Assembly: GCF_003660165.1 (NCBI RefSeq)
Contig: NZ_CP032829.1
Coordinates: 1,687,001 to 1,751,000 of the forward strand
Direction of reading: 5' to 3'
DNA from: Sphingomonas paeninsulae
Lineage (GTDB): Bacteria > Pseudomonadota > Alphaproteobacteria > Sphingomonadales > Sphingomonadaceae
DNA: 64,000 nt
The notes under the pieces: generated by a model
What the model was told of the DNA's origin: nothing
The model's input: the letters and a program-made list of their open reading frames with translations, nothing else
Database searches by the model: none
Shown here: positions 19,614 through 51,745 of the stretch, in pieces
How the letters are laid out: every line of letters begins with the position of its first letter
How positions within the stretch are numbered: position 1 is the stretch's first letter
Made by a program: the position numbers and the translations under genes

Positions 19614-19678
19614 TCGTACTTGGAAGTGGCCATATTCAAAGGTAGCCATTCTCTAAAGTAGCCAGCCCCCCTCCGCTT

Positions 19679-19746
19679 CCCTGAGCCTGTCGAAGGGGGT
19701 GTCCTGCTTCAACCTTTAGAAGGGCAGCCCTTCGACAGGTTCAGGG
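19679..19746. repeat. Pair of inverted REP-like 19-mers (stem-loop)
   Basis: CCCTGAGCCTGTCGAAGGG (19679-19697) and CCCTTCGACAGGTTCAGGG (19728-19746) face each other over a 30-base spacer. With flanking bases the arms can form a long imperfect hairpin between the convergent uvrB and purU ends, so it may act as a bidirectional transcription end or RNA stabiliser. The same core occurs at 32313 and 51702. Confidence 0.8.
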
Positions 19747-19753
19747 AAACGGG

Positions 19754-19793
19754 GTTTTAGGTTAATCTCCGAAGTTTTAGGTTAATCTCGGAA
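19754..19793. repeat. Tandem 20-bp duplication at the purU 3' end
   Basis: Two 20-base units (19754-19773 and 19774-19793), GTTTTAGGTTAATCTCCGAA and a copy with one mismatch, lie head to tail. The second contains the purU stop codon (19782-19784) and the first duplicates it just beyond. It abuts the REP-like pair, suggesting local slippage or a repair scar. Confidence 0.7.
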
Positions 19794-30199: not shown

Positions 30200-32143
30200 A
30201 TGGCGACCCTGATTGAACCAACCGATATCCTCGGCGCGGCCGATGCCTGTGCAAAGCGCGCCGCCGATGCGCTGGCCGCGTTGCAGCGGGACGACGGGCA
30301 CTGGGTGTTCGAACTGGAAGCCGATGCGACCATCCCGGCTGAATATGTCCTGCTGAAACATTATCTGGGTGAGCCACGCGATGCTGTGCTTGAGGGCAAG
30401 ATCGCGCGCTATCTTCGGCGGATACAGGCCGATCATGGCGGCTGGCCGTTGTTTGCCGGTGGCGCGTTCGACATCAGCGCGACGGTAAAAGCCTATTATG
30501 CGCTGAAGATGATCGGCGACGATGTGGATGCAGCGCACATGACGCGCGCGCGGACGGCGATCCGTGCGGCGGGTGGTGCGGAAGCGGTCAATGTGTTCAC
30601 GCGCATTCAGTTGGCGCTGTTCGGAGCAGGGCCGTGGCGGGCCGTGCCGACACTGCCTGTCGAGTTGATCCTGTTGCCGCGCTGGTTCCCGATCCATTTG
30701 TCGAAGATGTCCTATTGGGCGCGGACAGTGATTGTGCCGCTGCTGGTGCTGGCAGCCAAAAAGCCCGTCGCACGCAACGTGACTGGCGTGTTGGTCGATG
30801 AGCTTTATGTCGGCAGGCGGGTCCGGCCAGAGAGCAAAGCCCAGGGCACGAAACGCGGTTGGACGTTGTTTTTCGACGGGCTGGATGTGGTTCTGAAGGG
30901 GGTCGAGCCGCTCTGGCCGAAACGCCTTCGCGCACGTGCCGTGGCGGCTTGCGTGACGTTCGTGACCGAGCGGTTGAACGGCGAGGATGGGCTGGGCGCG
31001 ATCTATCCGGCCATGGCGAACAGCGTGATGATGTTCGATTGCCTTGGGCTCGCGGAGAACCATCCGGACCGGGCAATCGCGCGGGCGTCGCTCGACAAGT
31101 TGCTCGTTGTCGGAGAGGATGAGGCCTATTGTCAGCCGTGCGTATCGCCGGTGTGGGACACCGCACTGGCCGCTCATGCGATGATGGAGGCGGGGGGCGA
31201 TGATGCCGAGGCGCGCGCGGATGCCGCGCTGGCGTGGCTGAAACCGTTGCAGGTGCTGGATGTGAAGGGCGACTGGGCGGACGAGCGCCCGGATGTGCGA
31301 CCGGGTGGTTGGGCGTTCCAGTATAACAACGCGCATTATCCCGATCTGGACGATACCGCCGTTGTGGTGATGGCAATGGACCGGGCCAAGGGCCGGACGG
31401 GGCCGGTTTATGATGAGGCTGTTGCGCGCGGGGTCGAATGGACTGTCGGCCTGCAAAGTCGTGATGGCGGCTGGGGCGCGTTCGATGCCGACAACAGCTA
31501 TCATTATCTGAACAATATCCCGTTTGCCGATCACGGGGCGCTGCTCGATCCGCCGACGAGCGATGTGAGCGCGCGATGTGTTTCGATGCTGGCCCAATTG
31601 GGAGAGCGCGATACGCCCCGGATGAAGGCGGCGCTGGAGTTTCTGGAGAAAGAACAGGCGAACGACGGCAGTTGGTTCGGGCGCTGGGGTGTCAATTATA
31701 TCTATGGCACATGGTCGGCGCTGTGCGCGCTGAACGCGGCGGGGATCGATCATCAGTCGCCGATGATGCGGGGCGGGGTCGATTGGCTGATGCGCACCCA
31801 GAACGCGGATGGCGGCTGGGGTGAAGACTGCGACAGCTATGATTTGGCCTATAAGGGGTACACGCCCGCGCCTTCGACGGCGTCGCAAACGGGCTGGGCT
31901 TTGCTTGGGCTGATGGCGGCGGGCGAAGTCGACAATCCGGCGGTCGAGCGGGGTGTGCGCTATCTGATGGCGACGCAGGACGACGCCGGGCTGTGGTCGC
32001 AGGAGGCCTATACCGGCGGCGGATTTCCGCGCGTGTTTTACCTGCGTTATCATGGTTATCCAGCGTATTTTCCGCTGTGGGCGGTGGCGCGGTATCGCAA
32101 TCTGAAACGGTCGAATTCGGCGCAAGTGGCGGTGGGCATGTGA
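30200..32143 (+). CDS. shc: Squalene-hopene cyclase
   Basis: This 647-residue cyclase converts squalene to hopene and hopanol at the membrane. The catalytic Asp-rich motif DLDDTA lies at about residues 382-387, in the position of DVDD in Alicyclobacillus cyclase. QW repeats are visible (QRDDGHWVFELEADATIPAEY, QADHGGWPLFAGG, QSRDGGWGAFDADN, QANDGSWFGRWGVNYIYGTW, QNADGGWGEDC, QDDAGLWSQEAYTGGGFPRVFYL). It follows hpnE by 9 bp and overlaps hpnG by 4. Confidence 0.97.
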   Translation: MATLIEPTDILGAADACAKRAADALAALQRDDGHWVFELEADATIPAEYVLLKHYLGEPRDAVLEGKIARYLRRIQADHGGWPLFAGGAFDISATVKAYYALKMIGDDVDAAHMTRARTAIRAAGGAEAVNVFTRIQLALFGAGPWRAVPTLPVELILLPRWFPIHLSKMSYWARTVIVPLLVLAAKKPVARNVTGVLVDELYVGRRVRPESKAQGTKRGWTLFFDGLDVVLKGVEPLWPKRLRARAVAACVTFVTERLNGEDGLGAIYPAMANSVMMFDCLGLAENHPDRAIARASLDKLLVVGEDEAYCQPCVSPVWDTALAAHAMMEAGGDDAEARADAALAWLKPLQVLDVKGDWADERPDVRPGGWAFQYNNAHYPDLDDTAVVVMAMDRAKGRTGPVYDEAVARGVEWTVGLQSRDGGWGAFDADNSYHYLNNIPFADHGALLDPPTSDVSARCVSMLAQLGERDTPRMKAALEFLEKEQANDGSWFGRWGVNYIYGTWSALCALNAAGIDHQSPMMRGGVDWLMRTQNADGGWGEDCDSYDLAYKGYTPAPSTASQTGWALLGLMAAGEVDNPAVERGVRYLMATQDDAGLWSQEAYTGGGFPRVFYLRYHGYPAYFPLWAVARYRNLKRSNSAQVAVGM

Positions 32144-32886
32144 TCCTGATCGCGTGCGGATTGCAACGAGAGGCGCGGGTCATGGCGCGCAACGGGACCG
32201 TTGTTATTGGCGGCGGAGATGCGGCGCGGTTGGAGGCAGAGCTTGAGGCCTTGATAGCTTCGGGTAAAGAACTTCGTTTCCCGCCCTTTGGGCAGAGGAG
32301 CGAGCAGAGCAGCCCTTCGACAAGCTCAGGGAAGCGGGTTCATATGCAGGCCATGGGAATCCACGGTGTGCAGGCAATCCTGTCGAGCGGAATTGCAGGA
32401 GCGGTCGATCACACGCTGAAGGCGGGCGACGTGGTGATCGACGGTGATCTCGTCGAAGTTCTGCGGAAAATATTGCCGGGTGCGCGGGTCGGCAGGGTGA
32501 TCGGCAGCGATGCGATTGTGGCGACAGTTGCGGCGAAGCAGGCGCTTTTTCAGAAAACCGGTGCGCTGGCGGTGGATATGGAATCGCATATTGCCGCGCG
32601 CGTGGCTGCGCGTCACGGCCTGCCTTTTGCGGCGTTACGGGTGATTTCGGATACTGCGACTGAGGCGTTGCCTCCCGCCGCGCTGATCGGGATGCAGCCC
32701 GATGGCGAAATGGCGCTGGGGGCGGTGCTGGCCTCGCTCGTGCGCAATCCCGCCCAGCTTCCCGCGCTCATCCGAACCGGAGTGAGCGCGGGGCGGGCGT
32801 TTCGGAGTTTAGAGCGCTGCCACGACGTGCTTGGACGCGGTGGGATTGGCGAGCTTGATTTTGGCGAGTTCGCGCTCGACGTGTGA
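32140..32886 (+). CDS. hpnG: Hopanoid nucleoside phosphorylase HpnG with REP-like insert
   Basis: HpnG removes adenine from adenosylhopane to give ribosyl or phosphoribosyl hopane. The frame starts at GTG 32140 (GTGA overlap with shc) with VILIACGLQREARVMA and contains LSSGIAGAVDHTLKAGDVVIDGDLVE and AVDMESHIAARVAARHGLPFAALRVISDT, the purine nucleoside phosphorylase signatures. About 30 residues between LEALIAS and GIHGVQAIL come from an in-frame REP-like element. The last 78 bases overlap the 3' end of hpnH on the other strand. Confidence 0.87.
   Translation: MILIACGLQREARVMARNGTVVIGGGDAARLEAELEALIASGKELRFPPFGQRSEQSSPSTSSGKRVHMQAMGIHGVQAILSSGIAGAVDHTLKAGDVVIDGDLVEVLRKILPGARVGRVIGSDAIVATVAAKQALFQKTGALAVDMESHIAARVAARHGLPFAALRVISDTATEALPPAALIGMQPDGEMALGAVLASLVRNPAQLPALIRTGVSAGRAFRSLERCHDVLGRGGIGELDFGEFALDV
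32313..32331 (+). repeat. REP-like 19-mer inside hpnG
   Basis: CCCTTCGACAAGCTCAGGG matches the repeats at 19679-19746 and 51702-51720. Here the 19-mer and its flanks (roughly 32262-32355) sit inside an open reading frame and are translated as part of HpnG. A short GCCCTTTGGGC palindrome lies just upstream within the same insert. Confidence 0.8.
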
Positions 32887-51669: not shown

Positions 51670-51695
51670 TTCAGCCTTTTTTAACGCGAAACCTT

Positions 51696-51726
51696 CCGCC
51701 TCCCTGAGCCTGTCGAAGGGAGGCGG
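51696..51726. repeat. REP-like palindrome between murA and thiL
   Basis: A 31-base element with perfect 10-base arms (CCGCCTCCCT / AGGGAGGCGG) encloses GAGCCTGTCGA; the core CCCTGAGCCTGTCGAAGGG is the same family as at 19679 and 32313. It lies 20 bp past the murA stop and can fold as a strong hairpin on either strand, so it may cap the murA transcript. Confidence 0.85.
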
Positions 51727-51745
51727 TAATCTCAAGATTTAACCC

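Follow-up and report, generated by a model that had tools for sequence, protein, structure and literature searches.

Palindromic repeats that lie in frame inside protein-coding genes are best known from Rickettsia, and Ogata and colleagues, in work of 2000 and 2002, reportedly described the palindromic elements of that genus in protein genes. In the literature covered here these elements are 100-150 bp long and are translated in frame within conserved enzymes (PMC10969869, PMC2229807, PMC3767692): a guanylate kinase carrying one is reported to be translated and active, with a changed affinity for its substrate (PMC2229807), and Rickettsia orthologues have inserts in common at one locus (PMC3767692). 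The same literature also covers ERIC/RU and other bacterial MITEs, small non-coding repeats with frames fused to host ORFs (PMC2229807, PMC10969869). The GTAG/CGTC REPs, as given in the main text of the study that covers their intragenic cases, are small multicopy palindromes, often forming inverted dimers 20-100 bp apart, which are mainly intergenic and sometimes in frame within genes; the CGTC types are common in alphaproteobacteria (PMC3733652). The species of that study include S. alaskensis, S. wittichii and S. chlorophenolicum, with intragenic cases in S. alaskensis, and in two Xanthomonas species two REPs lie at about one site in recB, while hpnG is unnamed in its main-text portions, the supplement being excluded (PMC3733652).

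The window analysed here, a stretch of 64,000 nucleotides from Sphingomonas paeninsulae (NZ_CP032829.1, positions 1,687,001 to 1,751,000), contains an hpnG gene that is interrupted in frame by a member of a dispersed repeat family (Table 1). HpnG is described as a putative phosphorylase taking adenine off adenosylhopane (PMC12583986). The window gene is called hpnG from its neighbourhood (shc and an hpnH-like gene) and from the alignment of orthologues; its product scores 160.8 bits in the TIGR03468 profile search, below the curated cut-off of 187.1, and the best-matching stretch (residues 73-227) starts directly after the insert. Across 397 genomes of the family the same profile has a match in 40 and exceeds its curated cut-off in 6, the remaining 391 staying below. 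Within the genus of the window the presence of the gene is patchy, with no HpnG match in four of seven genomes (G001, G003, G004 and G005). The initial annotation was right that the rest of the phosphorylase frame is intact: the frame is open from start to stop, the product retains the residues that do not vary across 61 HpnG sequences, and by predicted fold and alignment profile alike it resembles MTA/SAH nucleosidases of the PDB (an MTAN-like fold).

Table 1. Coordinates, in the window, of hpnG, its insert and further members of the repeat family
Feature	Position	Strand	Details
hpnG (hopanoid-associated phosphorylase)	32140..32886	+	GTG start, TGA stop, open frame; matches TIGR03468 and PF01048
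In-frame insert	32263..32355	+	31 codons (93 nt, residues 42-72); without counterpart in other HpnG
Palindromic element proper	32269..32341	+	delimited by alignment with 20 other copies; DNA fold z -0.81
Intact right core, exact 19-mer CCCTTCGACAAGCTCAGGG	32313..32331	+	14 exact copies genome-wide
Second family member, both cores, approximate ends	19671..19755	.	cores 19679-19697 (-) and 19728-19746 (+)
Short 31-bp hairpin, one core	51696..51726	.	upstream of a thiL-like reading frame

The extra segment sits between the LIAS and GIHG motifs of the protein, and its conceptual translation contains the peptide SEQSSPSTSSGK. The initial annotation had found it there, giving 32262-32355 and about 30 residues, values that Table 1 corrects. 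Compared with the short, insert-free HpnG of a genome of the same genus (G006), the LIAS-GIHG interval of the window protein is 35 codons longer, and in a tree of the insert-free cores these two genes pair at 100/98. Among 120 other HpnG loci, a set that includes partial genes and a few duplicate genomes, none has 10 or more residues in this interval, the maximum being a single residue; likewise, no insert occurs at the window's position among the 80 named HpnG loci. The segment was seen only in the window lineage, and the survey rules out an ancestral HpnG loop. A loop of ordinary variability with a chance likeness to the repeat might account for a good repeat match in the right half only. 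However, the exact 19-mer recurs at 13 other places in the genome and has no expected occurrence in shuffled window sequence. Together with the orthologue survey, the shuffles effectively refute the chance or ancestral reading, to which we give almost no weight.

The 19-mer belongs to a family with 51 cores genome-wide that deviate from a 17-mer pattern at no more than one base (the reversed pattern, as a control, gives 0), confirming that it is multicopy. These cores group into at least 36 sites, a lower bound in that degenerate copies far from them are not in the count; a 37th cluster consisting of a single core with three mismatches was dropped as chance. All 51 lie on one contig of the window genome G000 (C3, 2.92 Mb), with none on C2 (0.85 Mb) or C1. 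The sites are mostly imperfect palindromes of about 100 bp, in which a spacer separates a left arm of the CCGCTTCCCTGAGC type from a mirror-image right arm ending in GGGAAGCGG. At family level, the exact 19-mer is found in 143 of the 397 genomes and 52 of the 96 genera sampled, with a very uneven spread.

The window has a single exact 19-mer, the one in hpnG, and three imperfect copies. Two of these, at 19679 and 51702, had been listed with it but differ from it by one base each. The 19679 core forms an inverted pair with the downstream core of its site, which has two mismatches, and the stretch around the pair (19655-19770) folds as DNA with a z of -5.47, far better than the shuffles; the stretch around the short hairpin (51688-51735) reaches -4.82. 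This hairpin lies just upstream of a putatively thiL-like ORF. The thiL-like gene of Sphingomonas psychrolutea (L237) carries a different palindrome, in frame. In the hpnG element the outer arms (32269-32282 and 32329-32341) still pair and the left core is missing, and this degraded copy lacks the strong fold (z -0.81). The insert is hardly more self-palindromic than chance (score 13, shuffle mean 10.4, with 38 of 200 shuffles equally high). At its two sides about 6 and about 14 nt of inserted bases are unaccounted for by the element. A near-repeat, TGCAGGCCATG/TGCAGGCAATC, is seen by eye on the right side, and target duplication as the source of the ends, a candidate based on that near-repeat, is weak.

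As the initial annotation had supposed, the family is usually intergenic: 25 of the 36 sites have no spanning ORF (at least 120 codons from stop to stop, with a start before the element) and 11 have one. Thirteen ORFs at eight of these 11 sites match no Pfam family, and at two further sites (L025 and L031) the element lies eight and five codons past the first possible start of ORFs outside the Pfam scan. Across the 36 sites, with those two not Pfam-tested, hpnG is the sole one with homology evidence of being inside a gene, and so the exception within its family. Being multicopy, made of paired inverted units and mainly extragenic, the family belongs to the REPs or small palindromic repeats in the broad sense. 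The label "REP-like" is therefore apt for its architecture, though by eye the aligned copies have no GTAG tag and no CGTC tag with CCA tail. A link to a RAYT-type transposase is not supported: the single Y1-transposase match genome-wide (PF01797) is a partial one on C2, spanning profile positions 60-100 of 121, and no repeat copy was found on that contig, all cores being on C3. We therefore reject RAYT mobilisation in the window genome.

The insert could instead be the first step of gene decay, with the window hpnG inactive or on its way out. The sub-threshold HpnG score agrees with such a course, as do the four genomes of the genus without HpnG, where the pathway may be dispensable. On the other hand, the frame is intact with its family-invariant residues, and over 213 codons the core gives dN 0.13, dS 0.98 and dN/dS of about 0.13 against G006, i.e. 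it is under purifying selection between species, although this value averages the time before and after the insertion and is by itself no proof of a working window enzyme. Further, the AlphaFold2 model has pLDDT of at least 90 at 188 of 248 residues, a high-confidence predicted fold outside the insert, and below 50 at residues 49-59 and 61-72, so that the insert is predicted to be a disordered loop. With these points on either side, we consider decay improbable.

The presence of a palindrome within hpnG is not peculiar to the window. In 17 other sphingomonad hpnG genes, near-perfect palindromes of six sequence types occupy another loop, which in the translated orthologues lies downstream of the window's site, after the strand GDVV. 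From 122 loci we extracted 114 such loops (eight had no anchors) and scored 98 (16 were too short); 19 are strongly self-palindromic (z 4.4 to 15.1, with 0 of 200 shuffles equally high), which amount to 17 distinct genes, as L142 repeats L055 and L176 repeats L163. Outside the 17 stand L065 (z 3.5), L074 and L076 (z 2.1), the decayed L073, the partial L079 and L097 with its 11-codon loop (z 3.7, 0 of 200 shuffles). Long loops without a palindrome occur in the g44 genomes (L164, L165, L167, L168, L170, L173 and L174) and in L172, and many sphingomonad HpnG have a short, palindrome-free second loop. In L168 a palindrome-looking segment (FPRAGGSPFP...LSPRLRGG) directly precedes the likely hpnG start.

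The six types are themselves repeated in their hosts. Counting half-elements with up to two mismatches, the hpnG copy included and controls being 0 throughout, type A has 15 to 275 copies in each of 7 genomes out of 7, type B 75 to 136 in 3 of 3, type C/D 56 to 143 in 3 of 3 (none in the window genome) and type G 3 to 15 in 3 of 3; type E has 16 and 61 in two hosts and 0 in three others, and type F 27 and 48 in two hosts and 8 and 0 in two others. Judging by their spacers, the A inserts of L057, L061 and L068 probably descend from one insertion, and likewise the B inserts of L071, L077 and L083. Conversely, L059 and L163 have an identical stem read in different frames, which speaks for separate insertions. 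On a tree of 53 insert-free cores (from 55 rows chosen out of the 122 loci; L062 and L074 are absent), 11 insert labels need 11 changes where the minimum possible is 10, and the sisters L059 (type A) and L066 (type C), joined at 97/91, carry unrelated palindromes at the same loop.

Such recurrence, with 17 genes hit by six types at one loop and 11 changes for 11 labels on the tree, is what would be seen if hpnG were a true hot spot. In that case its loops would be preferred during insertion or by selection, and the inserts would serve some purpose, perhaps in the loop close to the lipid substrate or as a hairpin in the mRNA. In its fullest form, the loop following GDVV would be a landing site at which unrelated palindrome types swap in frame and by now form a working part of the enzyme or mRNA, with the window lineage repeating this at a second loop with a family outside the GTAG/CGTC kind; we doubt this version, and the hot spot in general also strikes us as unlikely. 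The rates of change bear on it from both sides. Inserts of the B clade (L071, L077 and L083) and of L057/L061 have fewer substitutions than the neighbouring gene, even though the spacer marks them as inherited: most insert windows are 90-100% identical, and the gene windows nearest to them about 74-92%. This slower change, as a hot spot with functional inserts would have it, is a modest effect. Against a role, insert codons are mostly looser than the gene core, pointing to weak constraint at the amino-acid level; the cores of ten insert-bearing pairs have dN/dS of 0.10 to 0.26, pairwise values for 10 of 13 pairs, the window pair being an eleventh. Moreover, the second-loop insert of L059 likewise has a low-confidence, disordered prediction, and disorder predicted for both loops would be the simplest reason for their tolerance. 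The window insert also occupies the other loop, the hosts' repeat load is heavy (up to the 275 half-elements above), and the many short loops without a palindrome also weigh against a hot spot.

The neighbouring genes likewise divide. In hpnH there is no internal insert of eight or more residues in 66 aligned rows of the 80-locus set, the window included, and shc has one insert site, in 6 of 75 rows (the window being among those aligned); both counts favour a special status of hpnG. The shc genes concerned (L056, L059, L061, L068, L071 and L077) carry a type-G palindrome in frame (CCCCTCCCCTTYAGGGGAGGGG...); that of L077 has another segment nested inside it. Yet other genes too are hit. In S. 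psychrolutea we sampled 60 regions among the type-A matches listed, giving 60 sites (L195 has no element and one other region has two), and scanned 18 ORFs at 18 sites, each in the best coding frame of one flank or both. Eight of the 60 sampled sites lie in frame within real genes. Pfam homology extends across or lies on both sides of the element at five: a 2-oxoacid dehydrogenase E2, fmt, hpnG, a thiL-like AIRS protein and thiD. At three more (murD, an AAA-lid/VWA protein and a periplasmic-binding-protein family member) one side has it and the frame is the best coding one in both flanks. The short gene names (fmt, thiD, murD and so on) follow the matched families. Left uncounted are six sites with a Pfam domain starting only after the element and four ORFs without a match. 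These in-frame sites and the shc site reject hpnG as the sole affected sphingomonad gene.

We therefore favour, with a probability of roughly three in four, random insertion of palindromes that are kept only where the frame remains open and the loop is tolerant, the window insert being close to neutral. A dispersed repeat of about 100 bp with two inverted cores, resembling a REP dimer, would have entered hpnG on the window lineage after the split from G006, probably in a single event. It would have landed in a stop-free frame, after the first long helix of the nucleosidase/phosphorylase fold and before the strand that follows, adding 31-35 residues that may form a disordered loop, while the gene remained under selection and its product presumably active. 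Since then the hairpin and much of the left half of the element may have disappeared, unless it arrived incomplete. Entry would be random, with retention where the loop absorbs the addition. The repeat family, the absence of the insert from relatives and the conserved core under between-species purifying selection are the observations on which this rests. That palindrome insertions are tolerated more widely follows from the second-loop palindromes of other hpnG genes and the eight in-frame sites of S. psychrolutea. Random insertion of a palindrome sits less well with the damaged left arm and the near-chance self-palindrome score of the insert, with the flanking bases that the element leaves unaccounted for and with the sub-threshold HpnG score, and the recurrence at hpnG, judged informally, exceeds what pure randomness would suggest.

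In relation to the known systems, the window insert is a new case of already known behaviour, since the Rickettsia palindromic elements and the intragenic GTAG/CGTC REPs have established palindromes in frame within enzymes. Like an RPE, it lies in frame in a conserved gene and is absent from the orthologues. We recognised no description of palindromes in hpnG in the literature searched, which excludes supplements and most subscription journals; within it, what seems new is that a single enzyme loop carries six palindrome types across related species. For such recurrence, the REP pair at recB in Xanthomonas is a small precedent, and the Rickettsia orthologues with inserts at one locus are a further one. 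Sphingomonads share the in-frame habit, in genes of lipid, cofactor and cell-wall metabolism and of translation initiation, with insert-free relatives at hand for comparison; hpnG in particular offers a natural series of one enzyme with many palindromes, in which it becomes testable whether these are inert, harmful or useful and by what route they enter. The window family is like the GTAG/CGTC REPs in architecture, differing from them in the tags and tail described above. Among the other hpnG inserts, several resemble the CGTC kind by eye, including those of type B in L071, L077 and L083, which start with CGTCACCCC and have a CCA tail; in family A only 4 of 110 half-elements have CGTC at the start. 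From ERIC/RU and other MITEs, the sphingomonad palindromes differ in being without demonstrated terminal repeats of known transposons, TA ends or target duplication. With the Rickettsia elements they share the position in frame inside conserved enzymes; unlike these, they are GC-rich, belong to several types and occupy one enzyme loop with different types in different species.
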